Source: a virus. From it: a DNA stretch of 31,427 nt. The notes under the pieces were generated by a model. It was not told where the DNA came from, made no database searches, and saw only the letters and a list, made by a program, of their open reading frames with translations. Shown here piece by piece: positions 2,034 to 26,827 of this stretch. Position 1 is the stretch's first letter. The number at the start of each line of letters is the position of its first letter. The position numbers and the translations under genes are program-made. The stretch lies in the IMG/VR virus record IMGVR_UViG_3300001681_000082, positions 1 to 31,427 of that record, one strand, 5' to 3'.

Positions 2034-2339
2034 ATGGAAATTAAGTTTCATCACTGTACAGCATTAAGTAAAGGCCAAGCATACCTATATTATAGGTATG
2101 ACAAAGCTTTACCCGGGTACTTTGTGACTAGTGTTGCTATTGCAGATACTATGGAAGCAAAACGAAACTTTACAGAAGTATTAAAATATTTTTTTGTAGA
2201 AATAGTTAGAAGTAAAGACGTTTACTGTAATCTATTTGAAAATAGCGTAGAACTTTTTAGTAAGTACGTTAATACTCCACAACAGTATAATGGTATGACC
2301 ATATATAAGGTTAAACCTTATGAGGAAATAGTCGGATGA
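2034..2339 (+). CDS. Conserved-looking small protein upstream of portal (101 aa)
   Basis: A 101-codon frame with only a weak ribosome site (TTTGAGAT) before ATG 2034. The product looks globular, with alternating strands and helices and many aromatic residues (HHCTALSKGQAYLYYRYD near the start, YFFVEIVRSKDVYCNLFE in the middle). Its stop overlaps the portal start as ATGA (2336-2339), a typical translational coupling, so it is probably made together with the portal and may take part in head or connector assembly. No family recognised. Confidence 0.7.
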   Translation: MEIKFHHCTALSKGQAYLYYRYDKALPGYFVTSVAIADTMEAKRNFTEVLKYFFVEIVRSKDVYCNLFENSVELFSKYVNTPQQYNGMTIYKVKPYEEIVG

Positions 2340-4468
2340 AAGAAAACAAAGATGAGTTAGATTTAGACTTAAGTGAAGCAAAAAGCTTAACTGAATGGGA
2401 AAATCCGCCTAAGTTAGAAGAACTTAAGCAAGACTACCAAGAAGCACAATCAGCACATACTGACCACGTACTTGAGATAGATAACTGGTTAAGCAATTTA
2501 AACGGTGACCAACAAATTAAAGCTAAAAAGGGTAGGTCTAAAATTGTACCTAAACTTATTCGTAAACAAGCTGAATGGCGCTATGCTGCATTAAGCGAGC
2601 CTTTCCTATCTACTGATGACTTATTTAATACAGCCCCAGCTACCTTTGAAGATAAAGAAGCTGCTATTCAGAATGGTCAAGTACTTAACTATCAGATTAA
2701 TTCCAAGATTGACAAAACTAAGTTTATCGATGAATACATCCGTACAGCCGTAGATGAAGGCACAGTTGTAGTTAAAGTAGGCTGGGAGTACGAAGAAGAA
2801 ATTGAAGAGGTAGAAGTACCAGATTTTGATTTTCAACCGACTCCTGAAGCTGGACAAACGCACCAACAGTTACATGCAATGATGCAGGAAGACCCTGAGA
2901 GATTTCAACAAGAAATTCCACCAGAGATGCAACAAGCACATGAAATTACTATGCAAGGTGGTGCGCCTGTAATGCCTGTACAAGTTGGCTCACATATAGA
3001 AGAACAAATTAAAATTCTTAAGAATCAACCTGAGTTAGAGGTATGTGATTACAATAATGTAGTTATTGACCCAACTTGTCAAGGTGACTTAAATAGTGCA
3101 GAGTTCATAATTTATAGCTTTGAAACATCGATGTCTCAGCTTAAGAAAGACGGTAGATATGATAATTTAAAACATGTGTCTTTAGATAACAGTAGTCCAC
3201 TTAATGAGCCTGATTTTGAGGCAGGTGATGACAGTAGTTTTAAGTTTAAAGATGACGCACGTAAAAAGATTGTAGTTTATGAATACTGGGGTTTCTGGGA
3301 TATTAATGGTACAGGTGAAGTAGAACCTTTTGTAGCTTCATGGGTAGGTAATACGTTAATCAGAATGGATGAGAATCCATTCCCAGATAAGAAGTTACCA
3401 TTTGTAGCAATACAATACCTACCTAGACGTAAATCCATATATGGTGAACCGGATGGTGCATTACTAGAGGACAACCAGAAGATTGTAGGTGCTGTAACTC
3501 GTGGTATGATTGATATCATCGGTAGAAGTGCTAACGGTCAGATGGGTATCCGTAAGGACGCTCTAGACGTTACTAACGCACGTAAGTTTGAACAAGGTGC
3601 TGATTACAAGTTTAATTCTAATGTAGACCCTAGACAAGCTTTCCACATGGAAGTTTATCCAGAGATTCCTGGTAGTGCCTTGAATATGCTTAACCTTCAA
3701 AATAATGAAGCTGAGTCTCTTACAGGTGTTAAAGCATTCAGTCAGGGTATCACAGGCCAAGCATTAGGTTCTACAGCTACTGGAATTAGGTCAGCATTAG
3801 ATGCTTCATCTAAGCGTGAACTAGGTATCTTACGTAGATTAGCTAATGGTATTAACCAGATAGGTAGAAAGGTTATCTCTATGAATGCAGAGTTTTTATC
3901 TGACCAAGAGATTATCCGAGTCACAAACGAAGAGTTCGTTGCTATCAACCGTGAAGACTTAGGTGGCAATTACGACATCAAACTAAACATATCTACTGCT
4001 GAAGCAGATAATGAGAAAGCTCAAGAGTTATCATTCATGTTACAAACTATGGGTAATAACATGGACCCAGCGATGTCACAGATGATATTATCGGACATTG
4101 CACGTTTACGTAAGATGCCAGAGTTATCTAAACAAATTAAAGAATACCAGCCACAACCTAATCCGATGGCTGAACAGAAAGCACAACTTGAGATGCAACT
4201 ACTACAAGCACAGATAGCTAATGAACAAGCTAAAGCTGCTGAGAATACTGTAGATGTTGAATACAAGAAGGCTAAGACTGCTACTGAGATGGCTAAGAAT
4301 AGAAATCTTAATAGTAAGTCTGACTTGGAAGACCTTAACTTCGTGGAGCAAGAGTCTGGTGTAGGTCGCCAGCATGAGGAAAACATGAAGAAGGTTGACC
4401 AAGGACACGGGATGGATAATAAGTTTGCAGACGCGCTTATTAACGACCCTGTGTTAAATGGAGGGTAA
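2336..4468 (+). CDS. Portal protein (N4 gp59-like)
   Basis: A 710-aa protein placed immediately before scaffold and capsid genes, as expected for the portal, which forms the dodecameric ring at the DNA-packaging vertex. The N-terminal part has the usual podovirus portal features: an acidic start, KGRSKIVPKLIRKQAEWRYAA around residues 64-84, then a strand-rich body with VVKVGWEYEE near 145. The central part contains YEYWGFWDINGTGE and the PFVAIQYLPRRKSIYGEP block, followed by TGVKAFSQGITG and a long C-terminal helical region rich in Gln, Glu, Ala and Lys (about 590-690), like the barrel or crown of portals. Length is close to the roughly 760 aa of N4 gp59. The start overlaps the upstream gene by 4 nt. 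Confidence 0.88.
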   Translation: MKENKDELDLDLSEAKSLTEWENPPKLEELKQDYQEAQSAHTDHVLEIDNWLSNLNGDQQIKAKKGRSKIVPKLIRKQAEWRYAALSEPFLSTDDLFNTAPATFEDKEAAIQNGQVLNYQINSKIDKTKFIDEYIRTAVDEGTVVVKVGWEYEEEIEEVEVPDFDFQPTPEAGQTHQQLHAMMQEDPERFQQEIPPEMQQAHEITMQGGAPVMPVQVGSHIEEQIKILKNQPELEVCDYNNVVIDPTCQGDLNSAEFIIYSFETSMSQLKKDGRYDNLKHVSLDNSSPLNEPDFEAGDDSSFKFKDDARKKIVVYEYWGFWDINGTGEVEPFVASWVGNTLIRMDENPFPDKKLPFVAIQYLPRRKSIYGEPDGALLEDNQKIVGAVTRGMIDIIGRSANGQMGIRKDALDVTNARKFEQGADYKFNSNVDPRQAFHMEVYPEIPGSALNMLNLQNNEAESLTGVKAFSQGITGQALGSTATGIRSALDASSKRELGILRRLANGINQIGRKVISMNAEFLSDQEIIRVTNEEFVAINREDLGGNYDIKLNISTAEADNEKAQELSFMLQTMGNNMDPAMSQMILSDIARLRKMPELSKQIKEYQPQPNPMAEQKAQLEMQLLQAQIANEQAKAAENTVDVEYKKAKTATEMAKNRNLNSKSDLEDLNFVEQESGVGRQHEENMKKVDQGHGMDNKFADALINDPVLNGG

Positions 4469-6090: not shown

Positions 6091-7365
6091 ATGGCTTTAA
6101 CATATGGAACACCTGTCGGTCCTCAAGCGCGCACTGACTTTTATTACAAAAAAGCGCTAATCGCTACACGCGATAAACAGTACTTCATGCCTTTGGCTGA
6201 TGTACGTGCAATGCCTAAGCATCACGGTAAGACTATTAAACAAGACGTTTACCAGCCTTTACTAGATGACTTGAACAATAATGACCAAGGCTTAGATGCT
6301 GCTGGTTTAATTGTACTTAAGGATAAGTACTCTGCATGGAAGATTGATGGTACGCAAGCAACTGGTGGTACTGGTTGGACTGCTGCTTCATCTACTACTG
6401 CTGGTTACTATGCAACTTCAGCTAACGCTTTAGCTGCTACTGGTGCAGTTGTTGCTCTTAAGAACTCTGGTAACATTTATGGTTCTGCTAAAGACATCGG
6501 TGTAATTGCTGACCGTCTTCCTGCATTGACTGAGAATGGTGGTAGAGTTAACCGTGTTGGTATGACTCGTACGCAAATTACTGGTTCTATCGTGAAGCAA
6601 GGCTTCTTTACTGAGTACACTCAAGAGTCTTTAGACTTTGATACAGACTCAGAATTGATGTCACACATCACTGAAGAAATGGTACAAGGTGCAACTGAGT
6701 TAACTGAAGCTGCTTTACAAGTAGACTTACTTAACACTGCAACTTCTAGCGGTACTGTTAAGTATCCTGGTGCTGTTATTACTAAAGCAACTGTTGCAGC
6801 TGCTGTTGATTACGAAGACTTTATGCAATTATCTATTGCTTTGGATAACGCTAAGTGTCCTAAGCAAACTAAGATTATTTCTGGTTCTCGTATGACAGAT
6901 ACTAAAACTGTTAATGGTGGTCGTGTAATGTACATTGGCCCTGACTTGATTCCATTAGTTCGTAAGATGAAGGACATCGGTGGTTCATCTTCAGCTGTAG
7001 GTTCAGGTTTTACTTCTGTAGAGAAGTATGCTGATGCTGCTAACATCCTTAACGGTGAGATTGGTTCAGTAGACCAGTTCCGTATCGTTGTAGTTCCTGA
7101 GATGTTGTACTCTGCTAAAGGTGGTGCTTCTAGTGCTGATATTTACCCTATGCTTGTTGTAGGTGATGGTTCATTTACTACTATCGGTTTCCAAACTGAT
7201 GGTAAGACTGTGAAGTTCACTACTACTCACAAGAAGCCAGGTAAAGAGATTGCAGACCTTAACGACCCTTACGGTGAGAAAGGTTTCTACTCTATCAAAT
7301 GGTACTACGGCTTCATGGCATTACGCCCTGAACGTCTAGGTATCATGTGGACTAAAATCGCTTAA
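6091..7365 (+). CDS. Major capsid protein, N4-gp56 family
   Basis: A 424-aa protein with the features of the N4-gp56 major capsid family (HK97 fold): an N-terminal arm with ARTDFYYKKALIATRDKQYF, a Gly/Thr/Ala-rich loop region (about 85-125), GGRVNRVGMTRTQITGSI around residue 150, and a C-terminal FYSIKWYYGFMALRPERLG block. Length is close to N4 gp56 (about 400 aa). Codon use is smoother and somewhat richer in GC than the neighbours, as expected of a very highly expressed gene. The ribosome site is TAGGAGAATATC before ATG 6091. A strong nested hairpin follows the stop. The product forms the icosahedral shell. Confidence 0.92.
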   Translation: MALTYGTPVGPQARTDFYYKKALIATRDKQYFMPLADVRAMPKHHGKTIKQDVYQPLLDDLNNNDQGLDAAGLIVLKDKYSAWKIDGTQATGGTGWTAASSTTAGYYATSANALAATGAVVALKNSGNIYGSAKDIGVIADRLPALTENGGRVNRVGMTRTQITGSIVKQGFFTEYTQESLDFDTDSELMSHITEEMVQGATELTEAALQVDLLNTATSSGTVKYPGAVITKATVAAAVDYEDFMQLSIALDNAKCPKQTKIISGSRMTDTKTVNGGRVMYIGPDLIPLVRKMKDIGGSSSAVGSGFTSVEKYADAANILNGEIGSVDQFRIVVVPEMLYSAKGGASSADIYPMLVVGDGSFTTIGFQTDGKTVKFTTTHKKPGKEIADLNDPYGEKGFYSIKWYYGFMALRPERLGIMWTKIA

Positions 7366-11764: not shown

Positions 11765-12544
11765 ATGGCAGCAGTAACTTGGAAGAATATAGCTCCCACT
11801 AGTGGTTCAGGTATTTTAGATGCTCTTAATGACGCAGGTGGCATGATTGGTACTGGTATTGGTGGTATTGGTGATGCTATCACTGGGTATGCTGATGACA
11901 GAACTGCTCGTGAAACAGACCAGTTTGTAGCTGATTTAATGCGGTATAAAGATAGACCATTAGAAGCAGATGCTTTTATAGATGCAGCTGACAACTCTTT
12001 TTTAGATATGTCTAGGGTTAATACTGCCAGAGAAGCTGTTAATGCTGATGCTACTGAAATAGCACTGTTTGGAGAAAAAGCAAAAATTAAAAGTATGTAC
12101 GATATAAAGTTAGCAGAAACTCAAGCAGCTGAAAAGGCAAAAGCAGAAAGAAAGAAAAATAAAATAAAACCTTTAGCACGTGCGGATTTAAACGCAACAA
12201 TGATTAAAAAAGATGGTGTAGAAACTACTACAACTTTCTGGCCAGGTTCTGACAGTGCTGCACAGGATTTCACATCTCTTACAGATAAGTATATAAAAAG
12301 TCGGAAAATCTTAGGTAAAGATGCTGATATGGCCAGACGTTTAATGTTTAATGATGCTGTATTTGATATAGATATGATAGATGAGCACTTTTTTAGTAAT
12401 GGAAAAACCTCAGATGAGAATAATGATGAAGCTGGTTACAAATACTTTGATGGGCTTCTTAAAGCATATTATAAGGATAAGATATTAGAAAAAGGTAAAA
12501 ACCAGGGTACGAGTACAGACACAATAAGCACTACTATAAAATAA
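11765..12544 (+). CDS. Internal virion protein-like (gp51 position, 259 aa)
   Basis: ATG 11765 follows AAGGGGATAGT. The start, MAAVTWKNIAPTSGSGILD, is a recurrent signature of podovirus internal virion proteins encoded just before the large ejected protein. A Gly-rich stretch follows (GGMIGTGIGGIGDAITGYA, about 25-43), then a long charged helix (about 85-135, with AETQAAEKAKAERKKNK) and a mixed C-terminal domain. It probably accompanies the vRNAP in the capsid and during injection. The next gene begins 21 nt downstream. Confidence 0.75.
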   Translation: MAAVTWKNIAPTSGSGILDALNDAGGMIGTGIGGIGDAITGYADDRTARETDQFVADLMRYKDRPLEADAFIDAADNSFLDMSRVNTAREAVNADATEIALFGEKAKIKSMYDIKLAETQAAEKAKAERKKNKIKPLARADLNATMIKKDGVETTTTFWPGSDSAAQDFTSLTDKYIKSRKILGKDADMARRLMFNDAVFDIDMIDEHFFSNGKTSDENNDEAGYKYFDGLLKAYYKDKILEKGKNQGTSTDTISTTIK

Positions 12545-12565
12545 CAAATTTAAGGATTATTGCGC

Positions 12566-15500
12566 ATGAGTTACTTAGGTAATGAGTCTTTTGACGATAT
12601 AGTTGCACGGAAACAAGCACAACTTTCAAGCGCAGCAAATGCTAAAAGAACACTTTTTGAAGACGCTGTATATAGCAAACAATTAGCAATAACTCCAGAT
12701 AGAGATTACCAAGGTCTCCAAAATAAACTTAATGCTAATGACTCAACTGAATTATCTTTTAAACATAATTCATTATTCAATAAAAATGCAGATGCTGATT
12801 CCATCATGGGACAGAATGCTAAAGGTGAAGACGTTGGTATACGTGCACTAGGTCTAGACACTTGGGAACATAGTTCTTATAAAGGCGATAAGAATAAAAT
12901 TAGAGCTTCACAGCGTAAACATTATGCACGTCTATTTAATGTACCTGAAAATGAAGTAACTGTTGACCAAATTCATGCTATGGGGCGTAGAGCAGATAAT
13001 CGCTTTAGAAATCTTCTAACAGAAGGCCAAGGTGAATACGACCAATCTTCAGGCACTTTCTCAAATATGCCAGGTAAACAATTTGAAGGTTTTGAAGACC
13101 AACTTTGGGCTCCTGAAAGCTTTAGAGATAACGCACAATATAGTGGTGAAGTAACGTATGACCCACTTAGTAGGAAATATAAGACTGATAAACGAACTAA
13201 AGTTAACTCATTTATTAATCCAGAAACAGGTGTAGACCTCTATAAGGCAATGAACACACCTGAGTTTAATACTAGGTGGTTTGAAAACACAGTAGAACAA
13301 AATGCTATACGTTCAGCTTATGAAGCTAAGTATGGAACTGCATACGATACCTTTACAGCACCAACTGCATCAAGAGACCATGAAGTAATGGGGTACACCC
13401 AACATGGTAGAGCAGCATTTGGTTTAAATGGTGAAGTTGTATCTGAAAAAGCCATAACATTACAAATGGATGGTAAGTGGGTTAATGTACCTACTATCTG
13501 GAAAGGTGAAAAGTATAGTGATGATGAAGTTGCTCAAATGCTTATCAATAATGAAGTATCTCCAACCAGTGAGCATAGTACTGAACAGGAAGCTATTGAC
13601 GCAGCAAAGAAAAGAAGTGATGAAATCACAGTAACACCATTACCTCAGGTATTTAAAGAAAAGAAAAGTAAATTTACTAATAGATTTACTGCAGAAGAAC
13701 TTGAGGTAATGTTTGCAAAAGATAGTTATTGGGAAGTTTTTACTAAGAGTTTAAGTGCTGGTGTTGATTCAATACAAGCGGCTGGTTATGGATTAGCTGC
13801 TTTAGCCGCTGATGTTACTAAAGATGCTAAGTGGATACGTGCAATAGTCCCCCCATTCGCTATATGGACGCTAATACATGAGTACACGAGTGACGTAGAT
13901 TTTGCTGATGCTATGTTAGAAGAATACCAAACTAATATACAAGAAGCTCACGAAAATGGTGCACAACTTCCTGCTTGGGATGCTGAGAACATGGATTGGA
14001 CAAATCCTGACATGGTCTTTAGACAGATATTAGCGGGAGTAGGTGAGTTTATCCCATCAATAGCAGGTGGTGGTATAGGTGGTAAAGTAGTATCTACAGG
14101 TGTTAAGAGTTTTCTAAAACACAAAATGAAGAAGTGGGGAGCAGATAAAGCAGTTAAAAGTAAAGCTTTACTTGCTGGAGAGATTACAGGTGCCGCTATC
14201 GGAAGTAATGCTTTCTACATGGGAATAGGTGGTGGTAGTGTATATGGTGATTTAGGTAGTGCTGGCTATAGAGGTAGAGATGCTCAACTTGCATCTATAG
14301 GTGGTGGTATTGTAATTGGTGCTTTAGATTCAATTGTTCCTAGAAGTATTGCTAAACAATTAGGTTTGTCCAAGTCTGCTGTTCAACGTTTTAAAGGTGA
14401 ACTAAGGAAAAAAGGTTTTGTAAATTCTGCTGGTAAAGTATTAACTGAAACTGCTAAAGGTGGTTTAGGTGAGGGTCTTACAGAAACTTTTCAACAAGTC
14501 GTAGAAAACTCTGTAATTAACATGGTTAAGTATGGTGAATTACCAGCATTTACTTCAGACGAAGCTTTTAGTGAGTATGTAGGTGTATTCATTAAGTCGG
14601 TATTAGGTGGTGGTGTTATTAAAGGAACCGTAACTACTGGTACTGAAGCTGTTAGTTTGTATAAAGGTGACAAAGGCGCTATACGTGAAGCAGCTGAGCA
14701 AATTGCAACAGAAGCCGAAGATGCACGTAATAAAGAGTCTGGAGAACACAGTGTAGAAGCAGAAGCAGAACTTAAAATTTTAGTAAAAGAATTTGATGCT
14801 CTAAATCTTGACATAGCTGGGTTACCTGAAGAATTTGATTCAATGAATAACTTGAACAAAGTAATTCATATTTCTAATGCTCTACAGAAAGCCGATAATC
14901 AAGAGATTATTAATAATAGCAGTCGTAGTACTCAAGAAATAGAAAGTATCCAGGAATCGCTAAATAACGTAGTTAATGCCTTACAAAATAGTTCTGATGC
15001 TAACAGTGTAGCTGCAGTTGAAGCAGCTTTTGATGCTGCTATTAAAAATGACCCAGCACGTAAAGCTTACTATTTACAACAGAAAGAGCAGCAACTAGCT
15101 ACTATTAAAGAGCTCAATAAACTCAAGAAAACTAAAGGTAAGAAAAAAGCAATATCTCCAGCACTTCAAAAATTAATTGATGATGCTGTTACTGTTCCAG
15201 TAGTAGTTGAAAAGAAAAGTTCTGATAGTACTGCTAAAGACTCAACAGATAAAGACTCAACAGATAAAGATGCAACTTCTGAAGATGACAAAGTAGAACA
15301 GTATTCACATGAACAACGTTTAGTAAAACTAAATGAAGCTTTTGATGCAGCTGTTGAAGCTAACCCTAAAGAAGAAGCTCATATTAATAAGCTCAGAGCT
15401 CTAGAAATTGCTAATCTTGAAGGACAAACTATACTTAACCAAGAAATTGCACGTATTAATAATACTGGTAATAAAGGTGACACAACAGGTAAAGGTAATA

Positions 15501-18500
15501 GTGAATTTGTAGGACGCTTAAATAAAGCAGTTAGTTCTTTTAAAACAGGCGGTGTAGATTCACAATTACAAACAGAACAGTATGGTGCTGCTCTTGATGC
15601 TAAAGGTGAAAAAGATAAACTTAATCGAAAGGTTGAAAAAACCACTGACAGTAACCCTTCAAACAGAGAAGCTAATGAAACAGCTATTGTAGGTGAAAAA
15701 GAAAAAATACTTAAGAAAGAAAAAGAAGCTTCAAAATCTGCAGAAGAAACACAAGAAAAAGCAGATGAGAAAAGTACTGAAGTTGTTAGCGGTCATGTTG
15801 AAAAAATAATAAAACAAATCAATGCTATATCTAAAAAAATTGAAGATAGTGACATTAACCCTAAACATAAAAAACGCTTAGAAAAGAAACGTAATAATCT
15901 AGGATTACTTATTGATAACTTAGCTTCACAGCAGCGTACCGAAAAGTCTGTAAATGAAGTTACTAATATTGCAATACAAGATACTTTAGACAGTTTTGAC
16001 TACCAACATGTTATTGTTGATATTGAAAATTTATCTATTACAAAGTCTTCTGATAGAGATGCAATTGTTAAGTCCGCGTTAGATGCTATTGAAGTCCTTC
16101 GTGATAAAGATGTTGAGTATGACGAAAAGATTAGAATAATCGCAGGAGTATTAGCTGCAAGAGAAAGATTAGTACAGAACCTCATATCAATTAAGAAACA
16201 GTTAAAACGTGTTACTGAAGAAGCTAATGTTAAAGACTTAGAAACTGAGTTAAACAGAACAAATGATTCAATCAAAAAAATGGAACCATTTGTTAAAGAA
16301 ATTTCTGGAATGAAATTTAAACAAGTAAACAACACAAAAAATAAGTACTCAGATTTACTATACTCATTAAAAACTGAATCATTTAAAAATATTGACAGAG
16401 ACGCATTAGATGACACAGATAAGCCACTATACGACTTAGTAGCTAAAATGGTGGCTAAGCAAGCCAGACGTGATAAAGCTGTTGGTAATAAAAATATTAG
16501 TCAAGTTAACCGTGAAATTTTATATGGTGATGAAGGCTATCAAGGTTATGAGGGGTATAAACAAGACGCAAAAGATGGCACACTTTCTATTAAAAATTTA
16601 AAAAACTTTGTAAAAGGTTTACAAGCTAAGTTAGTAGCATTTAATAAAGCAGTAGCTAAGTCAAAGCAGCTTAAAAAAGATGTCTGGGTAAATAAAGAAA
16701 CATTAGAAATTATTACAGAAAGACCTTTACCTGAAGGACAGGAAACTGCCACATTGACAAAAGATGGTTATAAAGATTTTGACCGTGAGAATTTCTGGTT
16801 TATAAATGCTAAAAATAGTAATAAATTAATTAACTTATTAAAGCTAGAGGTTGAACTTGGTGTAGCCACATTAGATGCTTTAACTAAGTATAAAGACTCT
16901 ACAAAAAACAAAGTTGTAACTACTGAAGAAATTGAAGAACATAATAAATTAATTGCACAAATTAATAAGTTAGTTAATCCTCCTGAAGATATAGGTGATT
17001 TAAACAACTTAGGTAAGGGTGAGACTGTCAAAGAAGCTTTACAACCATTTATGGATGCTGTCAATAAAGCTACTAAAAAGTTGAATTACGAGAGTAAACA
17101 AGTAGTTAAGTATATTAAAAAGCTTAAAGCTAATGGTAAAGAAGTATTTGAGACTGTTTACTTAAAAGAACTTAAAGCCAAAATAGCATTAATTGAAGCT
17201 AACATTAACTTATGGGAAGCTAAAGAAGTAGTAGGTAAAGTTACTTCTACACAAGCAAGCAAAGCTATTATTAAACTTAATAGTGATATTGTAAGTATCA
17301 CAGCAGAGATTGATAAAGCTGTAAAAGATGCTCAAAGTCGCAAAAAAGATAGTAGAACAACTGTAGCTAAACAACACTTCTTAAATGCCCAAGAACGCTT
17401 AAAAGGTAGCTTTATTAAAATTGTTAGTAAAGCTAAAGATAGCATATTTGTAACTGATATATTCGGAGTTAAGGATGACACTAGATTGTCATTAGCTGTC
17501 TATGCACAAGACAAAGATAATGGTAACTTAACAGCTGAAATTATTAAAGGGGGTTTAATAGATTTAGGTATTACAGATAAAAAATATATTCGTTACATTG
17601 TAAAGACCTTTGAACATTTTAAAGCTACTTACACAGACAGTATTGTTGCAGATGTTGATGGTAAACAGTCTAAAAAATATGATGAAGTAGGTGTATTTAA
17701 CTATAGTGAGCCTTTAGGTATGCTGTATGTTAAAGATGGTAAAAATGTCAAATTACCAGACACTGTATTATTTGCTATGATGATGGGTTCATTAGAATGG
17801 TTGTCGATTAGTCAAGGTGAATCTGCATTTATGGACTCACAGGCTATTGCCCAGTACCTTAAAGGTGATAGAAAAGCCCACGTAACACCTGAAGAAATTT
17901 CTATTTTTGGAAATATGGGTATTACTTACGGAAATGGTTCAAGGTCACTAGGCCCAATTGTTTACAACTATCTAAACATGCGTAGTATCGGAGCTAACTC
18001 AAAATTAAAGTTCTCTGAACTTATGAAAGACCCAACTAGTATTATGAAAGACTCTAGTATTGAGGAACGCCTAATAGTTGCTTTAGGTGAAATGTCATTA
18101 GAAATTTTAGAGCAAATGCCTGCAACGGTAACAAAAGCAGGAACAACAAACTTTATATCAATTACTCACACTGAATTTCCATCTGAACACTTTGGGGTTA
18201 AACCACTGGTTTCATGGAGAGAAACTGTTAAAGGTATAAGTCCTAAAGATATTGTAAAAATTCCAGCAGTACTAAGGAAAGCTGAAAAAGCTGTTGACAC
18301 TGCTTTCTTGAAACTATCTGAAGAAAAACAAACCTGGGAAAATTATATTTCTTTGTGGGAAAATTATTTTAATCCTACTAAAGGCGATAGAGATTTCATT
18401 AAGGCTAGGAAAAAAGAACTTGCTGTATTGAGAGCTGATGCAGAAAAACGTGCCGATGCTGGACTTAGTAATATATTCATAAATGAAACAGAAGATAACT

Positions 18501-21500
18501 TAAGTTTAGCTCGAGTAGCATCTAGTTTAATTAATGGTTATACGTCAGTTAATACTATTAAGTTACTGCCTGAAAACCATAAAGCATTTGAGAATATTGT
18601 TAAGTTTATTAAAGAAGGTAAAGATAACGTAAAAACTACTATGGGTACTCAGACTATCCTAGATGATATTCTGGATGAACCATCTACTACAGTACAAGAG
18701 CGTGCAACAGGTAGTCCACATCTATTACCAAAATTTGTAAGAAACTTAATTGAAAAGTTACAAAATGTAGAATGGCGAGGTAAAAAGGGAGAGCTTGGTT
18801 TATTTAAGCTTCTTAATATCATAAATAGACGTTTACTCGCTAATATGAATGATGATATAAATCCACATGTTGAACATGTTGATGGTATTGAAGCTTCTAA
18901 TGCGATTAAAGAACAAGAGCTTGCTGCTGTAGATGAATATATTACACTAGAAGGTTCAGAGGACGGTGAGTACAAGTCTTTCTACTTCAGATTTAAAGCT
19001 CAAGTACAGCATAGATTGCGTATTGTCAGTAATACTATTAATGGTCAAGCCAGTAAAATACATAGAGCACTATTTTTACCTATTAAAGCAATTTCAACAA
19101 TATCTCTAGACACGGATAAAAAACAGAGTATTTCTAGAATAGTGTTTAAGATAGCTGTAGCGCAAGCATTTGGCTTTAGCGTAGACAAAAAACCTTTAAC
19201 TGAAATCTTAACTGCCTTTGATAAATACGTTGAAATCTCGAAGGATTTGGTAGAAGCAGTATCACGTGGTGATATAACGGAAAAAGAATTTAATGCTAAA
19301 TTAACAGCATTTATTAAAGATAATAAAGATAATGATGTAGCACCTAGTATGCACATACTAGAGGCTATTATTGCGTTGACAGAGTATGACCCTGACGGTG
19401 TCTTTGACACACGTATAGGCTTAGAAATTGATGGTATCACTAATGGTTATGCTATTTCACTTTTACAATTTTTATCATTAAGTGAAAAAGAGCTTAAAAG
19501 TTTTAAAGAAATTTATGGTGAAAATACACCAGAGTTTAAAGCTGCAATTGTTGATGAACTTGTTTCATCACTAAAACGTGTTGGTATCAATGTTGATAAG
19601 TCTGAAACATATGATATGTTTTTACAAGCCGGTGACCTTGACGTTTATCAAGTGCTATCTATGCGTATTGTAGAGTCTTTCAATGACCCTGAATACATAG
19701 AAAAGATTAACAAAGATAACAAGATAAAGTTAAAGCAAGAGCAATTAGACGCTTTAGAAGGTGTGCAAGGAACACTGTTTGACAAGGCAAAACAAAAACT
19801 AGAAAAATTAGCAAGAGATTTAGCTAAAGCCCCTGTAATGACTAGTGTGTATGGTGCAAGCATCTTTAAGATTATCAATAATATTGCTGCGGATATTACA
19901 GATAATATATACACAGACTTTGCTGATTTCCAGCGTAGATACAATGCTACTAAAGAAGGTTCAGCAGAACAATCCACTATTTTGAACGAGGTTGCAGACT
20001 ACTCAAACAACTTAGCAGCACTGTTAAACTTCAAACAAGTAGGTGTAGTTAAGAAAGCAGTTAAAGGTGAGAGGGCCAAGAAACAAAAAGCAACTAGCAT
20101 TATCAAAGCACTTAAAGCGGGTGAGCTTGAACAACATGTCTTACCACGTAAGACAATTGAAACACTAGAGTTTACAGTTGTACGTATTTATACACCTGCA
20201 ATGACCTCCACAATGGATAAACTAATCGGTGGCTTACGTGAAAGTTCTAGTGTCGTAGTTAAAGCTAATGAGTATGAGTTCATGTTATTTGGACGTAAAC
20301 TTAAACAAGCTAAAGAATACTATCTAAAAGTTAATGACTTGCCACCTGAAAGTAAAGTGCCACAAGATGTTATTGAAGTATTAGTTAAACGTTTAGCTAT
20401 GGAGTATTTACCTTCGTACTACGGTCCTAAGTCTAGTTCAACACCGATTCCATTAATAAAACGTGGTAAAAAAGATGATAACGCAGTTACTATTAAATTT
20501 AAAAGTAAGCGTGTTACTAAAGCGAAAAAGTTAGGTAAAAGCACTACTAGACAAGATAGTAAAACACCTAAGATAGGTAGTAGAGCTACACCAGGTTCAA
20601 GTAATACATTTGAAAGAATGGGTGTTGGTGCAGCATTAGGTCAGATTATAAATATTGATTCAGCTGTATTAGGAGAAGTTCTTGAGGTATTCCCAAATGC
20701 TTTACCTATCTTTGATGCGTACTTTGGTACGGTTAATGACATGGTTAGTGTGTCTAAAACATATGGTAGTAGTTTTGGACGTATCGGTAATACTCATAGC
20801 ATTTTAGATGGTACATTAAAGCGTCTACATAAATACGTACAAGATGACAGTCAAACTGTAACAGCTGATGATGCTATAGATATTGATGCACCATATCTTA
20901 AATTAACGCAAGAAGACATTGACAAAACTAACGAGGAATACGCAGAAAGTTCTTTTGAAGCTAACGAGTTACGTAAACAACTTGAAAAAGCACAAGGTAA
21001 TTCAAATGAAGAAGCTCGCATAGCAATACAATTATCTGAGTTAGGAATATCTCAAATAATTGGTGAGTTAAATACACGTATTGACACTGTTAAAGCGCAC
21101 AAGAATTTACTTAAAAATGCAGGTTATTCTTTAGAAGATGCTAACGTTGAGCAAATGCCTATTTCGTCTTTAAAGAATAAGACACAGAAGCCTAAAACTA
21201 AAACATCTAGTAATGACACTAACAAAAACTCAGATATTCCAAATATTCAGGGAGAGTTACCTGGCTTTGAAACAGCTGAAGGTAAACCTACTAAACTTAG
21301 TAAAACACTGAAGAAATTTGAATTACAAAAACTTGCAAAAGCAAGAGATATTGATACAAGTAATATGACAGTAGCTGACTTACGTACAGCTATTAAACGT
21401 TTTGATGCAGGCAAGAAAGTATTCCCTAAGTTAGTTGAGCCTAAAGCCCCTAGTTTAGAATCTATACAACCTGTTCTTAGAATGTTTATGGGCAAAATTC

Positions 21501-24500
21501 ACCCAGAATCTGAGATAGCTAGTGATTTTAGACGTATAGGTATTACATCTAAAACTGTACCCGGCTTTTATTCTAAAAACGCTAAGCTACAATCAGGTAT
21601 TGATGGAATACCTATGAGTGAAATGTTGGAGGATTTAGCACCTCTAGGTATTTCTCCAGTAGACGAGCAAGGTGGTAGTAATCCAGATTTGTATGTAGAT
21701 ATTGATTGGATAATGGAACAAATTGAAGAAGAATTCTTTAATAGAGTTTTTGCTGGAGATAATGAGTTTTTAAATCAACAATACAACCAAGAGTTTCAAA
21801 AATACCAACAAGAACTTGCACAACAGCAAGCAGAGTTAGAAGCAGAAGAAGATGCAGCAGCTAACGCACAAGGCGACTTTAAAGATAATGAGTTCTTAAA
21901 TAAATTAGATGATAGTACAGAGTATCAATATGATTCAATGTTTGAGGGTATTGAAAAAGACCCAGATACTTACAATATCATTAAGCAAAAACTTAAAGAG
22001 TTATACCCAGAAATTAAATTAAAAGAGGTACAAACAGTTATTGATGGTTTTGGGCGTGAAGTATTAGGTAAAGCTCTTGGTAGTATTATTGAAGTTAGTT
22101 CTAAAGGTAAGTTAGATACTGTACCGCACGAGTATGCTCATGTATACATCAATGTTCTTGAAACAACTGATTTCATGGATATGTTATTAAAACAGGTAGA
22201 AAAGGAAACTGGTTTAGATAGAACAGACGCTAAAGAATACTTAGCTCGTCATATGGGTGAGAATTTTACTAAACAGATTAAAAAGTCAAAATTAAGTATA
22301 AAACTTGGACATTTGATTAATAGAGCAAAACATAAAATAATATCAGCAATGATTGCGCTAAGCTACACATTAGCTATAAAAGTATATGGTGAAGAAGCTG
22401 GTACTAATAAAATTAAAGCAGTTGTAGGTGCTTACTATAAACGTCAAAAGAAAAAAGTAGTACCTTTAAAGACTAATATTAAAAAAGCAAGTATCAGGTT
22501 TTATACTGGAGCTCACAAAGATGCTATTAGATTTACACCTAAAACAGGTTATACCAAGGTTTCAATGGAGGAAACTCTAAAGAATGAGCCAATGGCTGTA
22601 GCCATCTTAGGACGTGTTTTGGACACATTTAAGACAGCTACTTTAACTGGTAGTATTGCTCTTGCTGAACAGGGTGATGTATTTAGACACGGTATTAGCA
22701 GTTTGCATGACATGGATATCAGAGTACATTCTTCAGAATTTAATAACATTGAAGAAAGTGTTTTAGATATTAGCCCAAATGCTGTACTAATTTATGACAT
22801 ACCTACTAAAACAGGCCGTACGATTAAATCATTCATTATTCCACCTGACGGTCGAAAGATTGTAGATATCAAACGTGATATTAGAAGAGTTGTTAGTTAT
22901 AAAATTATTGATGTTGATACAGGCAAAGTTGTTGGTGTATACAAAGCTGCTGTTGATAGTAGAAAACAAATTATCTCTGAAAAAACCAGAGGCGAGTCAG
23001 CAGTTATACTTGATTTAATGGAAAGTGATAAAACAGCAGATTCTATTAATTTCTTTAGTGCTGTTATGCAACGAAATATACCACTAGCTTTAGCTAAATC
23101 AATTTTTAAAGCTAAACAGGAAATTATTACAGGTGGTATGGCAAGGGATAAAGATATTATTGACTATACCTTGTTTGCACAAGACCCTATAACAGAAGTT
23201 ACAGACCCAGAACTTTTTGTTGAGAAAGGTGAAACAGAAGAAACAAGCACCCAACAAGAAGATACAACAGACACAACAGATAGTACCATCTTAAGGTCTA
23301 TTGCACATGAAGTTACAGGCAAAGTCAAACACATATATACAACACATAAATTACGTGAAAAATTACAAAGTGTTTTTGATATGCTAGGTGAAGTCACTGA
23401 TGATTTAATGTATATGTCAGAGGCGGATAAGGACACTCAAGTAGGGCACTTAGCGCGTGTTATGACTGATATTATAAGTAAAGCAGGTCATGACCTAGAC
23501 AGAGCATCTGTGACGGTTAATGAAGTAACATTTAGAATGGATGGTCATATTAGTCCAAGCACTAATAAAATAACTGTTAATGTTAATACTACATCACCAT
23601 TAACTTATGCTGGACAGAGTGCGCAAGAGGTTTACGTACATGAATTGATTCACGCAGTAACTAGAAGTGCTTTATTAGGTAATTCAAATTTTCAACATGA
23701 AATTAGAAAATTACGTAGAGAAGTTAAAGCCACTTTTGAATTAAAAGCGAGACCTTACGAAGTATTTTTAAATACTGACGAAAATGGTAACGTTATATAT
23801 TTGACTGATAAAGCATCAGAAATTGCAGACGCTAAAGAGCAATATAACTATGTGTTTAAAGATGGTAAAAACAGTGCTGAACCACATGCTGTATTAGATG
23901 AGTTTTTAGCTTACGCATTAACTAATAAGTTTTTAGTTAAAGAACTTAGTAAGATGCCGCCTAAACAGTCCCCATTATGGAGTGATAATCCTAAAGATAC
24001 TCCAGTTGAAAAAATAGTTAAACTGTTAGCCAATTTATTTAATAGACTGTCTACAATTCTAGATAGAAAAGATAGACCTAAAAATATTGAAGAGCAAATA
24101 TTTGCATTAACTTATGATGTTGTAGCGATAAGTGAGAAGCGTAAATCATATTTACAAGCTGCATTAACTAAGTTAAAAGTAGGCGAACACTTCTACCGTA
24201 GTAACAAAATTGTTAGTGACTTCTTTAAAACTATTGTTAAAGAAGGTATTGAAGTAGGTGGTAAAAAGTATATTGCAATGGTTGATAAGATTACTAAAGA
24301 TGGTAAAGTAAACTCATTTATTGCTAATTTACTTTACGATACTAAGCTTGCTGCAATGTATGTTGCATATGGTAGTTTTATAGATAAACACCCAAGACTA
24401 CAGTTTCATTTGGGAGATAAATACCGTAAGTTTTCCCCAAGTATTGTTAAAAACATGTTCTCATTAAAAAGTGATTTCTTCGGAAACAAAGATAATGTAT

Positions 24501-26827
24501 TTACACGTTTAACCTTTGAATCAAATGCTAAGATTGACCAGACTAGAAAGGCTTATAAAAATAGTATTATTTCAAATTTACTTGATAGTTTTAAAACTGA
24601 AGGTTTACTAACAAAAGAAAATAAAGAAGCTATTACACGAGGATTATTTAAAACCAGTTTTTCAGATTTAATAGCATTAAAAGCTTTTTCTTTAAAAGAT
24701 GCATTAGCTTTCTTTAGTGATGATAAAGCTTTAACTACTGAAATTACTAAGTATGCTGGTTTATTAGGTATGCCTAGTAATCGTCATTACACTGCACAAA
24801 CACATGCACTAGTTGACTTTATGTTAACGGGTAATAATGATAATATTAATCAGTTTAAAAATCCTGAATTAATTTATATTAAAGACCCTAGTAGAAACTC
24901 AAGTGATAAAGTTGACCAGACTGTTGTAGATAATCTAAAGATTTATGTCACACTACTTGCAATACAAGGTACAACGGATACCACTAAAAAAGCTGTTGCA
25001 GATATTGCAAAACAAGAATTTGCAGCAGATAAATTAGATAATGGTATTATCAATGTAGTTAATATGCATACAGCATTCAAACATCGTTCTTTAGTTGAAG
25101 GTTTTGATAATACAGCTGCTCAAATGACACAAGGTTATATTGCCACTGTGGTTGATTCTGATATATCATTTGAATTCGCACCAACAGATAAAGAAACTGT
25201 TAATAAATTACGTATTGATGGCTTTACACTTATTTCTAAAGTTAAGCCTATAGCAGGATTACAAACTACTGCTTATGGTATCTACATCAGAAAAAATGAC
25301 CCAGATTTACCAAGAGTTAAAGGTTCTTTATCAGTAACAGCAAATCATTCAGGTGGTATGTCGTTGATGGAAATTATTCGTAGGGACGTTAAGCCAGTAT
25401 TTGTTCAAGAAGTTTTCCAAAACTTTATGGCTGACCAAGAAAAATACATGAATAGTTCTAATAATGAAAACACAATGATGCCTATTATTGATGCTTGGGG
25501 TAATATAACGGATTACTCTATACATATGAAACATAGCATGGTTGAAAAACACTTAAATCAAAATCTTCAATTTGATGAAGTGTTAGCAACAATGTATTCA
25601 AATTTAGAAGATAAGTTAGCTTCTAAAGATATGAACATTAGAGTTATCACAGAACTTCATAAATATTCAAAAAAACATTACAAAGATAACCCTAAACGTT
25701 TTATCAACATATTAAGTAGTAAAAATAGAGATGAGTACTTTAATGTATTACCTGCATATACACGTTATGAAATAACTAGACGTGCAACATATGATAAAAA
25801 GACTAAGAGTAAACAGTTCTTTGTAGATATGACACTTTTAGACCAAGTTTTTGGTTACCAATTGCCATCAGTATCCACATTAAGTGTGTTTAAGAAGCAC
25901 CCAGTAGCTGAACGTAGAGCCAAGGTGTTTGAAAAAGGTGTTAGCGAAGTTGTTGCATTTGTTAAAGAAACTATTATTATTAGAATACCTATTGTTCCAG
26001 CTGTGAATATTATAAGTAACTATGTATCATCTTTCTTACATGGTGTACCTATCGGATATATAAATAAAACTTGGTCAGAAGGTGTCCGAGAATTACACAT
26101 GTATCAAAATGATGCAGAGTCATTACGTTTAATTGATTTAAAGATTTTAGGAAACCCTACACATAGTCAAGTAGCTCAATTAGAGCGTAAGCGTGCTAAA
26201 TTAGTATTCAGAATGAATAACAGTAAAGTAGCTAAGTTTATGGATATGGGGCTATTTAACTCAATTACAGAAGATATAAATCAGAATGAGTTTACGTATA
26301 GACGTAAACTGCAAGGTAAGATTAGTAGCTCTAAAATACTAAATAAATTTAAGGGTGCCCCATCAGAGGTTGTAAACCAACTATACATGGGTGAAAAAAC
26401 ATCAACATTTAAGTTTTTTATGCACCTTACTCAGATTAGTGATTTCGTAGCAAGATATACTTTATACAAATATGATACTGAAGTACTTAAAATTGATGAA
26501 GAAACTGCTTATACAAGCATGGTTGATATGTTTGTTAGTTATGACCGCCCATTAAACAAATATTTACAATATGGTAATGACCACGGTTTCTTATTCTTTA
26601 TTAAATACTGGATTCGTATACAACGTCCAGCAATTAAATTAGTTAAAGATAAACCAGTAAATGTAGCATTATTACTTTTAGGAAATCAGATGGTAAGTAT
26701 TGAAAGTATATTCAATACTAGTGTGTTAACTGGTAACTTGTTCCCTATGATAGGTGATATAGAAATGTTTGCTAATGAGTTAGTGATACCATCTGGATTA
26801 GAGATAATGTCAGGTGCTAGTCTTTAG
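12566..26827 (+). CDS. Giant virion RNA polymerase, N4 gp50-like (4753 aa)
   Basis: Start ATG 12566 has TAAGGAT 9 nt upstream; a TTG two codons earlier is less likely. The polymerase core (about 1640-2760) aligns with N4 mini-vRNAP: R2150 in a T/DxxGR-like site (VQHRLR), motif A EIDGITNG (D2289), motif B KAPVMTSVYG (K2421, Y2429) and motif C LPIFDAYFGTVND (D2717); motif spacings match N4. Other modules, N to C: an SNase-like region (about 70-260), a VNVPTIWKG repeat (about 306-355), a Gly-rich hydrophobic region (about 385-700), a charged helical region, a SAP-like segment (2915-2949), HEYAH (3188-3192), a nucleotidyltransferase-like site (GS 3362, HDMD 3381-3384), HELIH (3692-3696) and an N4-type C-terminal block (about 4655-4690). 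Known role in N4: packaged, injected, transcribes early genes. Its length, about 1250 aa over N4 gp50, is unusual. Confidence 0.9.
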   Translation: MSYLGNESFDDIVARKQAQLSSAANAKRTLFEDAVYSKQLAITPDRDYQGLQNKLNANDSTELSFKHNSLFNKNADADSIMGQNAKGEDVGIRALGLDTWEHSSYKGDKNKIRASQRKHYARLFNVPENEVTVDQIHAMGRRADNRFRNLLTEGQGEYDQSSGTFSNMPGKQFEGFEDQLWAPESFRDNAQYSGEVTYDPLSRKYKTDKRTKVNSFINPETGVDLYKAMNTPEFNTRWFENTVEQNAIRSAYEAKYGTAYDTFTAPTASRDHEVMGYTQHGRAAFGLNGEVVSEKAITLQMDGKWVNVPTIWKGEKYSDDEVAQMLINNEVSPTSEHSTEQEAIDAAKKRSDEITVTPLPQVFKEKKSKFTNRFTAEELEVMFAKDSYWEVFTKSLSAGVDSIQAAGYGLAALAADVTKDAKWIRAIVPPFAIWTLIHEYTSDVDFADAMLEEYQTNIQEAHENGAQLPAWDAENMDWTNPDMVFRQILAGVGEFIPSIAGGGIGGKVVSTGVKSFLKHKMKKWGADKAVKSKALLAGEITGAAIGSNAFYMGIGGGSVYGDLGSAGYRGRDAQLASIGGGIVIGALDSIVPRSIAKQLGLSKSAVQRFKGELRKKGFVNSAGKVLTETAKGGLGEGLTETFQQVVENSVINMVKYGELPAFTSDEAFSEYVGVFIKSVLGGGVIKGTVTTGTEAVSLYKGDKGAIREAAEQIATEAEDARNKESGEHSVEAEAELKILVKEFDALNLDIAGLPEEFDSMNNLNKVIHISNALQKADNQEIINNSSRSTQEIESIQESLNNVVNALQNSSDANSVAAVEAAFDAAIKNDPARKAYYLQQKEQQLATIKELNKLKKTKGKKKAISPALQKLIDDAVTVPVVVEKKSSDSTAKDSTDKDSTDKDATSEDDKVEQYSHEQRLVKLNEAFDAAVEANPKEEAHINKLRALEIANLEGQTILNQEIARINNTGNKGDTTGKGNSEFVGRLNKAVSSFKTGGVDSQLQTEQYGAALDAKGEKDKLNRKVEKTTDSNPSNREANETAIVGEKEKILKKEKEASKSAEETQEKADEKSTEVVSGHVEKIIKQINAISKKIEDSDINPKHKKRLEKKRNNLGLLIDNLASQQRTEKSVNEVTNIAIQDTLDSFDYQHVIVDIENLSITKSSDRDAIVKSALDAIEVLRDKDVEYDEKIRIIAGVLAARERLVQNLISIKKQLKRVTEEANVKDLETELNRTNDSIKKMEPFVKEISGMKFKQVNNTKNKYSDLLYSLKTESFKNIDRDALDDTDKPLYDLVAKMVAKQARRDKAVGNKNISQVNREILYGDEGYQGYEGYKQDAKDGTLSIKNLKNFVKGLQAKLVAFNKAVAKSKQLKKDVWVNKETLEIITERPLPEGQETATLTKDGYKDFDRENFWFINAKNSNKLINLLKLEVELGVATLDALTKYKDSTKNKVVTTEEIEEHNKLIAQINKLVNPPEDIGDLNNLGKGETVKEALQPFMDAVNKATKKLNYESKQVVKYIKKLKANGKEVFETVYLKELKAKIALIEANINLWEAKEVVGKVTSTQASKAIIKLNSDIVSITAEIDKAVKDAQSRKKDSRTTVAKQHFLNAQERLKGSFIKIVSKAKDSIFVTDIFGVKDDTRLSLAVYAQDKDNGNLTAEIIKGGLIDLGITDKKYIRYIVKTFEHFKATYTDSIVADVDGKQSKKYDEVGVFNYSEPLGMLYVKDGKNVKLPDTVLFAMMMGSLEWLSISQGESAFMDSQAIAQYLKGDRKAHVTPEEISIFGNMGITYGNGSRSLGPIVYNYLNMRSIGANSKLKFSELMKDPTSIMKDSSIEERLIVALGEMSLEILEQMPATVTKAGTTNFISITHTEFPSEHFGVKPLVSWRETVKGISPKDIVKIPAVLRKAEKAVDTAFLKLSEEKQTWENYISLWENYFNPTKGDRDFIKARKKELAVLRADAEKRADAGLSNIFINETEDNLSLARVASSLINGYTSVNTIKLLPENHKAFENIVKFIKEGKDNVKTTMGTQTILDDILDEPSTTVQERATGSPHLLPKFVRNLIEKLQNVEWRGKKGELGLFKLLNIINRRLLANMNDDINPHVEHVDGIEASNAIKEQELAAVDEYITLEGSEDGEYKSFYFRFKAQVQHRLRIVSNTINGQASKIHRALFLPIKAISTISLDTDKKQSISRIVFKIAVAQAFGFSVDKKPLTEILTAFDKYVEISKDLVEAVSRGDITEKEFNAKLTAFIKDNKDNDVAPSMHILEAIIALTEYDPDGVFDTRIGLEIDGITNGYAISLLQFLSLSEKELKSFKEIYGENTPEFKAAIVDELVSSLKRVGINVDKSETYDMFLQAGDLDVYQVLSMRIVESFNDPEYIEKINKDNKIKLKQEQLDALEGVQGTLFDKAKQKLEKLARDLAKAPVMTSVYGASIFKIINNIAADITDNIYTDFADFQRRYNATKEGSAEQSTILNEVADYSNNLAALLNFKQVGVVKKAVKGERAKKQKATSIIKALKAGELEQHVLPRKTIETLEFTVVRIYTPAMTSTMDKLIGGLRESSSVVVKANEYEFMLFGRKLKQAKEYYLKVNDLPPESKVPQDVIEVLVKRLAMEYLPSYYGPKSSSTPIPLIKRGKKDDNAVTIKFKSKRVTKAKKLGKSTTRQDSKTPKIGSRATPGSSNTFERMGVGAALGQIINIDSAVLGEVLEVFPNALPIFDAYFGTVNDMVSVSKTYGSSFGRIGNTHSILDGTLKRLHKYVQDDSQTVTADDAIDIDAPYLKLTQEDIDKTNEEYAESSFEANELRKQLEKAQGNSNEEARIAIQLSELGISQIIGELNTRIDTVKAHKNLLKNAGYSLEDANVEQMPISSLKNKTQKPKTKTSSNDTNKNSDIPNIQGELPGFETAEGKPTKLSKTLKKFELQKLAKARDIDTSNMTVADLRTAIKRFDAGKKVFPKLVEPKAPSLESIQPVLRMFMGKIHPESEIASDFRRIGITSKTVPGFYSKNAKLQSGIDGIPMSEMLEDLAPLGISPVDEQGGSNPDLYVDIDWIMEQIEEEFFNRVFAGDNEFLNQQYNQEFQKYQQELAQQQAELEAEEDAAANAQGDFKDNEFLNKLDDSTEYQYDSMFEGIEKDPDTYNIIKQKLKELYPEIKLKEVQTVIDGFGREVLGKALGSIIEVSSKGKLDTVPHEYAHVYINVLETTDFMDMLLKQVEKETGLDRTDAKEYLARHMGENFTKQIKKSKLSIKLGHLINRAKHKIISAMIALSYTLAIKVYGEEAGTNKIKAVVGAYYKRQKKKVVPLKTNIKKASIRFYTGAHKDAIRFTPKTGYTKVSMEETLKNEPMAVAILGRVLDTFKTATLTGSIALAEQGDVFRHGISSLHDMDIRVHSSEFNNIEESVLDISPNAVLIYDIPTKTGRTIKSFIIPPDGRKIVDIKRDIRRVVSYKIIDVDTGKVVGVYKAAVDSRKQIISEKTRGESAVILDLMESDKTADSINFFSAVMQRNIPLALAKSIFKAKQEIITGGMARDKDIIDYTLFAQDPITEVTDPELFVEKGETEETSTQQEDTTDTTDSTILRSIAHEVTGKVKHIYTTHKLREKLQSVFDMLGEVTDDLMYMSEADKDTQVGHLARVMTDIISKAGHDLDRASVTVNEVTFRMDGHISPSTNKITVNVNTTSPLTYAGQSAQEVYVHELIHAVTRSALLGNSNFQHEIRKLRREVKATFELKARPYEVFLNTDENGNVIYLTDKASEIADAKEQYNYVFKDGKNSAEPHAVLDEFLAYALTNKFLVKELSKMPPKQSPLWSDNPKDTPVEKIVKLLANLFNRLSTILDRKDRPKNIEEQIFALTYDVVAISEKRKSYLQAALTKLKVGEHFYRSNKIVSDFFKTIVKEGIEVGGKKYIAMVDKITKDGKVNSFIANLLYDTKLAAMYVAYGSFIDKHPRLQFHLGDKYRKFSPSIVKNMFSLKSDFFGNKDNVFTRLTFESNAKIDQTRKAYKNSIISNLLDSFKTEGLLTKENKEAITRGLFKTSFSDLIALKAFSLKDALAFFSDDKALTTEITKYAGLLGMPSNRHYTAQTHALVDFMLTGNNDNINQFKNPELIYIKDPSRNSSDKVDQTVVDNLKIYVTLLAIQGTTDTTKKAVADIAKQEFAADKLDNGIINVVNMHTAFKHRSLVEGFDNTAAQMTQGYIATVVDSDISFEFAPTDKETVNKLRIDGFTLISKVKPIAGLQTTAYGIYIRKNDPDLPRVKGSLSVTANHSGGMSLMEIIRRDVKPVFVQEVFQNFMADQEKYMNSSNNENTMMPIIDAWGNITDYSIHMKHSMVEKHLNQNLQFDEVLATMYSNLEDKLASKDMNIRVITELHKYSKKHYKDNPKRFINILSSKNRDEYFNVLPAYTRYEITRRATYDKKTKSKQFFVDMTLLDQVFGYQLPSVSTLSVFKKHPVAERRAKVFEKGVSEVVAFVKETIIIRIPIVPAVNIISNYVSSFLHGVPIGYINKTWSEGVRELHMYQNDAESLRLIDLKILGNPTHSQVAQLERKRAKLVFRMNNSKVAKFMDMGLFNSITEDINQNEFTYRRKLQGKISSSKILNKFKGAPSEVVNQLYMGEKTSTFKFFMHLTQISDFVARYTLYKYDTEVLKIDEETAYTSMVDMFVSYDRPLNKYLQYGNDHGFLFFIKYWIRIQRPAIKLVKDKPVNVALLLLGNQMVSIESIFNTSVLTGNLFPMIGDIEMFANELVIPSGLEIMSGASL
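15236..15265 (+). repeat. Two 15-bp tandem copies inside the vRNAP gene
   Basis: AAAGACTCAACAGAT occurs twice in tandem, followed by a partial third copy. It keeps frame and encodes the Asp/Ser/Thr/Lys-rich linker (KDSTDKDSTDKD, residues about 890-905) between the hydrophobic region and the long helical region. It looks like a flexible linker produced by slippage. Confidence 0.75.

Follow-up and report, generated by a model that had tools for sequence, protein, structure and literature searches.

A staphylococcal-nuclease-like domain at the N-terminus of the virion RNA polymerase in a rare group of uncultivated N4-type phages

The window analysed here, the whole 31,427-nucleotide stretch of viral DNA (IMG/VR record IMGVR_UViG_3300001681_000082, positions 1 to 31,427), is a 31.4-kb fragment of an N4-type phage of the family Schitoviridae. 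It holds the following genes and features, with residues counted from ATG 12566 unless stated otherwise (a start at TTG 12560 raises all numbers by two):

2336-4468: portal protein
6091-7365: major capsid protein
12552-12556, plus strand: AAGGA, ribosome-binding-site-like, 9 nt upstream of ATG 12566
12566-26827, plus strand: virion RNA polymerase (vRNAP) gene, 4753 aa from ATG 12566 or 4755 aa from TTG 12560
19424-19447, plus strand: ExDGxxxG polymerase motif, EIDGITNG, residue 2289 in TTG numbering
22127-22141, plus strand: HEYAH, zincin-like metallopeptidase motif 1 (motif only)
23639-23653, plus strand: HELIH, zincin-like metallopeptidase motif 2 (motif only)
27230-27934, minus strand: ssDNA-binding protein

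The giant open reading frame is a true N4-type vRNAP, as it matched PHROG 2206 (virion RNA polymerase) in a profile search (E = 2e-278, best stretch residues 3609-4750) and carries the ExDGxxxG polymerase motif as defined in PMC10654107. Its start is most likely ATG 12566, with the AAGGA on its 5' side. Both HExxH motifs lie in the C-terminal half, as expected for the zincin-like metallopeptidases of this protein, and GSIALAEQGDVFRHGISSLHDMDIRVH (window 22649-22729, from TTG residue 3364 on) resembles, as a motif only, that of polymerase-beta-type nucleotidyltransferases, a class reported in polyvalent proteins. At the other end, the window vRNAP has an N-terminal extension of about 300 residues that is absent from N4 and six other cultivated schitovirus vRNAPs. 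The N-termini of the vRNAPs of N4, S6, MS02, PT15-A5, 98PfluR60PP, ort11 and Presley were free of the nuclease motif described below, and no segment of such a domain was found in N4 gp50, in agreement with the preliminary description of this DNA. The features of the extension, compared with staphylococcal nuclease (SNase), are:

12731-13351, plus strand: SNase-like domain, residues 56-262 (family alignment; AlphaFold2 model and Foldseek)
12791-12799, plus strand: D76-x-D78, equivalent of SNase D19-x-D21, invariant in 12 of 12 sequences
12842-12844, plus strand: R93, equivalent of SNase R35, in all eight subgroup-1 sequences, displaced in subgroup 2
12857-12868, plus strand: D98-T99-W100-E101, equivalent of SNase D40-T41-P42-E43, with D98 and E101 invariant
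12962-13021, plus strand: helix 133-152, equivalent of the SNase helix after the DTPE loop (AlphaFold2 secondary structure)
13136-13216, plus strand: predicted strands 191-198 and 210-217 (AlphaFold2)
13193-13195, plus strand: R210, equivalent of SNase R87, invariant; relatives have 'FFGRPLI' or 'KYNRPI' there
13385-13627, plus strand: second N-terminal module, GRAAFGLNGEVVSEK...DGKWVNVPTIWKGEKYSDDE...PTSEH, with tblastn matches in the relatives L016, L017, L043, L045 and L036

The preliminary description had recognised a thermonuclease active-site pattern in NADADS...IRALGLDTWE at residues 76-101, and in the ATG 12566 numbering the motif lies exactly there: NADADSIMGQNAKGEDVGIRALGLDTWE runs up to residue 101, at the place where S. 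aureus SNase has DGDT...FRLLLVDTPE (sequence from the PDB search). The MGRRADNRFRNLL helix and the segment SRKYKTDKR, which ends in R210 and which that description had likened to the SNase helix and the R87 strand, are both present in the window protein, and R210 is invariant. The module at 13385-13627 (TQHGRAAFGLNGEVVSE) was also considered as a second R87 strand and rejected, because in other relatives it lies apart from the SNase-like domain, and it is therefore treated as separate; in L017, L043, L045 and L036 it was found at unrelated genome places.

Single-sequence searches (Pfam, NCBIfam, PDB and tblastn against GenBank phages) were unproductive, and homologues were therefore sought via the capsid protein: an alignment of seven capsid proteins led to 80 uncultivated relatives, with the vRNAP N-terminus readable in the longer ones, and further scans added L094-L104 and L107-L112. 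A direct search with the window N-terminus matched only two contigs, both 97% identical. The homologues split into two subgroups, one (window, L002, L014, L094, L095, L096, L100 and L098) having R at the R35 position, and the other (L048, L043, L103, L108 and L050) having DADT/DGDS ... DAYE or DTAE and, in the second half, 'GYFGRDLI', 'GFFGRPLI', 'GYYGRPLI' or 'DKYNRPI', which are close to the SNase R87 strand 'DKYGRGLA'. Across a conservation set of 12 sequences from uncultivated phages, some as little as about 20% identical to the window, only 14 columns were invariant (M1, D76, D78, D98, E101, Q155, R210, N218, P219, G222, N230, T231, P232 and N235), and five of these (D76, D78, D98, E101 and R210) correspond to SNase D19, D21, D40, E43 and R87, residues whose functional roles are well known. 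The preliminary description had made its proposal depend on conservation of the catalytic residues, and this was found in distant homologues: the equivalents of the Ca2+ ligands D21 and D40 (D78 and D98) were kept in all 12 sequences and those of catalytic E43 and R87 (E101 and R210) were invariant, while R93 was invariant in subgroup 1 only (8/8) and the T41 equivalent, T99 in the window, lies at an alignment position occupied by T, A or S. Judged from the alignment, the five SNase-equivalent residues would come together in one site. The dN/dS of the domain was 0.11-0.43 in 11 comparisons, which indicates purifying selection.

In L014, DSGYFTLGDKEAGLRALGIDAPE contains the canonical 'RxLGIDAPE' and is spaced exactly as in S. 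aureus SNase (14 from D21 to R35 and 5 from R35 to D40). The pattern D.D[ST].{10,15}R.{4,5}D[TAS].E gave 18 matches in the 509,163 residues of the ORFs of all loci fetched, against 0.15 expected in shuffled residues, and 18/18 lay at vRNAP N-termini and none elsewhere. As several matched loci overlap, the matches represent about seven distinct lineages (the window group, L014/L051, L094, L095, L096, L100 and L035).

The Pfam search returned no SNase (PF00565) match for the window or its homologues, and a PDB sequence search with the family profile gave no match; since no Pfam profile detects the domain, we call it SNase-like rather than a demonstrated PF00565 member. Single-sequence matches to amidase 4rn7 (E = 0.13) and Mn superoxide dismutase (E = 0.024) were rejected as chance. 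The second (R87) half of L043 matched PHROG 452 (E = 0.0033), the only member to reach this family of PF00565-bearing phage SNases, which the PF00565 endonuclease of P-SSM7 matches with E = 1.2e-71. When the alignments were compared with eight SNases of phages or S. aureus by hhalign in local mode, subgroup 1, subgroup 2 and all sequences scored 25.3, 29.8 and 27.5, respectively (probability 7-27%), and for each of the three alignments all 200 column shuffles scored below the real one. Among 27 natural fragment families taken from the same phages, the two SNase-like ones ranked 1 and 2 (30.2 and 25.3, with the next at 24.1), and the two subgroups matched SNase independently, subgroup 1 over the first half of the nuclease and subgroup 2 over the second. 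Subgroup 1 alone is borderline, because its 25.3 is barely above the best shuffle (25.1) and the best natural decoy (24.1), and the argument for SNase draws on both subgroups, the fold and the invariant residues combined.

The preliminary description had named the OB-type SNase fold as a point to check, and the prediction agreed with it. From a 12-row alignment, AlphaFold2 modelled the window domain with a mean pLDDT of 73 and a pTM of 0.71, in the order strands 61-66, 79-83 and 89-94, helix 133-152, and strands 191-198 and 210-217, which at moderate confidence is the SNase OB topology of a three-stranded meander, a helix and two further strands. In a Foldseek search of the PDB, ranks 1-8 were all SNase variants or Tudor-SN (E 0.023-0.38, probability up to 0.97, target-normalised TM up to 0.57, rmsd 6-8 Å), with unrelated matches after that and no match to the window model below E 0.001, and against viral models the first match, a weak one, was a phage thermonuclease homologue (E = 0.45). 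The AlphaFold2 model of L108 was set aside as fold evidence, being poor (pLDDT 58) and having no significant match, with the top of its Foldseek list mostly SND1/Tudor-SN at E > 1.

The SNase-like vRNAP extension is a feature of a rare group of uncultivated N4 relatives. The window N-terminus had no match in 50,697 GenBank phage records, four other members used as queries against GenBank phages gave none or insignificant matches only, no relative turned up when bacterial and archaeal genomes were scanned twice, and another scan of viruses yielded no new subgroup-1 lineage. Presence of the domain was compared with capsid identity in those IMG/VR relatives whose ORF at the vRNAP position could be read: the domain was present where the capsid was at least 72% identical to that of the window (L014, L016, L035, L043, L048, L050, L051 and L052) and was not seen in ten relatives with capsids about 60-64% identical. 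Two of these ten have an SLT transglycosylase domain close to the N-terminus of the vRNAP (L074:8677-10000 and L076:14925-16200; E = 2.4e-20 and 8.8e-14), and L091 has a LysM domain near this end (L091:8176-9400), in the same region as the SNase-like domain. The vRNAP N-termini of L014 and L051 are 99% identical despite capsids that are 94% and 72% identical to that of the window, so the N-terminal region has apparently been exchanged between phages by recombination. These observations suggest that the vRNAP N-terminal end is an exchangeable slot holding an SNase-like domain, an SLT transglycosylase domain or neither. In L016 (capsid 88% identical to that of the window), the copy at 12330-13030 has no second half and the R87 strand is missing, so at least one lineage may do without the activity; there, the first half runs directly into the KWVNVPTIW module, which may reflect decay or an assembly join. 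Ordinary stand-alone SNase genes matching PF00565 were seen on two schitovirus contigs, at L071:3247-3846 (plus strand) and in L106, the L043 record, at 32606-32833 (minus strand), and the L043 phage thus encodes a stand-alone SNase in addition to the vRNAP domain.

Based on these results, we propose, with a probability of roughly 0.7, that residues 56-262 form a divergent, metal-dependent nuclease domain of the SNase type that is ejected with the schitovirus vRNAP and acts as outlined here. The family homology, the invariant acidic residues and arginine, the predicted fold, the purifying selection and the one-frame fusion come from the data above; we infer the nuclease activity, the metal, the ejection and the purpose, which would concern host nucleic acid or the DNA of competing phages. 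In N4, gp50 sits inside the capsid and its ejection precedes that of the DNA; its N-terminal domain (NTD) associates with the gp51 tunnel and enters membranes, the isolated NTD enters nanodiscs, residues 224-278 are putative membrane helices, and refolding of the RNAP and of the C-terminal domain takes place in the cytoplasm (PMC12633501). As a homologue of gp50, the window vRNAP would likewise travel in the capsid and be ejected into the host ahead of the DNA. The SNase-like domain would stand at its front, ahead of the part corresponding to the membrane-inserting NTD of gp50, and SYWEVFTKSLSAGVDSIQAAGYGLAALAAD, which follows the domain, resembles by eye the start of the NTD region of N4 and PT15-A5. 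Since an N4-like vRNAP is ejected before the DNA and the domain precedes the membrane-inserting region, the nuclease would reach the inner membrane as infection begins. If the site works as in SNase, Ca2+ would be coordinated by D78 and D98, water activated by E101 and phosphate bound by R93 and R210, resulting in phosphodiester cleavage without strict sequence specificity; the target would be host nucleic acid or the DNA of rival phages that infect that cell.

The side of the membrane may be argued both ways. The putative membrane helices at gp50 224-278 could form a two-helix hairpin, which would favour the cytoplasmic side for the SNase-like domain, whereas the periplasmic side is favoured by the requirement of SNases for Ca2+ and by the SLT domains that relatives carry close to this end. 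It speaks against the proposal that a nuclease entering alongside the phage genome would have to be kept from attacking it. A more specific scenario, which we put forward tentatively and consider somewhat unlikely as a whole, is that an active, Ca2+-dependent nuclease comes with the vRNAP to the inner membrane as the phage enters; in marine hosts it may work periplasmically, where Ca2+ is high, and destroy competitor-phage DNA in transit or other exposed nucleic acid, with the phage's genome shielded in the ejection tunnel. In this scenario the N-terminal slot would serve for weapons used at entry, in support of which relatives have SLT domains there, which cut peptidoglycan.

Three other explanations were weighed against an active, ejected nuclease. 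The domain might have the SNase fold and yet not cut, binding nucleic acid, metal or a partner instead, for example holding the incoming DNA end or docking on the ejection tunnel; inactive SN domains of Tudor-SN are known to bind without cutting. The displaced R35 of subgroup 2 and the truncated copy of L016 are consistent with such a role, and DNA binding would fit a polymerase meeting the entering genome, but the equivalents of the metal-binding and catalytic acids and of R87 belong to the small invariant set of an otherwise highly variable domain, the pattern of a retained active site, so that loss of cutting seems rather unlikely. That the domain is unrelated to SNase, with D-x-D, D-x-x-E and R kept for another metal-dependent or structural domain and the resemblance convergent, would agree with the lack of a curated profile match and with the modest profile-profile and fold scores; we judge it improbable given that the order and spacing of the five residues match SNase (exactly so in L014), that the best PDB fold matches, down to the eighth, are all SNase or Tudor-SN, and that the two subgroups match the two halves of SNase independently.

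The remaining alternative accepts a nuclease and places it on the phage side, processing phage DNA or packaged nucleic acid in assembly or genome entry, with no anti-host role. The gene lies among virion genes, its product is expected to be packaged beside phage DNA, and nothing found ties the domain to host targets. SNase-type enzymes act without strong specificity, however, and a role on packaged DNA would therefore damage the genome, and the SLT transglycosylases that relatives have close to this end target the host envelope; we accordingly give this explanation little credence. On the preferred reading, a nuclease ejected with the vRNAP, the domain of about 210 residues would, if active, be delivered ahead of all phage transcription, and the incoming phage genome would have to escape it in some way.

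Compared with SNase (thermonuclease, PF00565), the domain shares the predicted OB topology, DxD(S/T) and R..G.D[TA]xE at equal spacing, and an invariant R in the fifth strand; it differs in that the PF00565 profile is blind to it and in its long N-terminal helices, its fusion to a polymerase and, in the window protein, some tens of extra residues inserted ahead of strand 4. The phage SNases of PHROG 452 (annotated 'endonuclease'; cyanophages and pelagic phages, also L071/L105) have the same active-site residues and likewise occur in marine phages, but are small stand-alone proteins with clear PF00565 matches. Escherichia phage N4 gp50 has a homologous polymerase and C-terminal region and the same operon order, but is 3500 aa long and has no SNase-like extension. 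A parallel in architecture is provided by polyvalent proteins with an N4-type RNAP, in which the RNAP is fused to a metallopeptidase and one further effector and predicted to be injected; Iyer et al. 2017 (PMC5512222) list ART, lysozyme/transglycosylase, PBECR RNase and MPTase as partners, and the words SNase, thermonuclease and staphylococcal nuclease are absent from that text. Effector fusions to N4-type vRNAPs are thus already known; a search of openly accessible papers, with few subscription papers or preprints among them, gave no published report of an SNase-vRNAP fusion, and the SNase-like one is apparently unpublished. The window vRNAP may belong with the polyvalent proteins, which join several unrelated enzymatic domains and a zincin metallopeptidase motif in one polypeptide: its RNAP is established, its SNase-like domain is supported by fold and residues, and two HExxH and a nucleotidyltransferase-like sequence are seen as motifs only. 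With it, a putative nuclease joins the short list of effector domains fused to N4-type vRNAPs.
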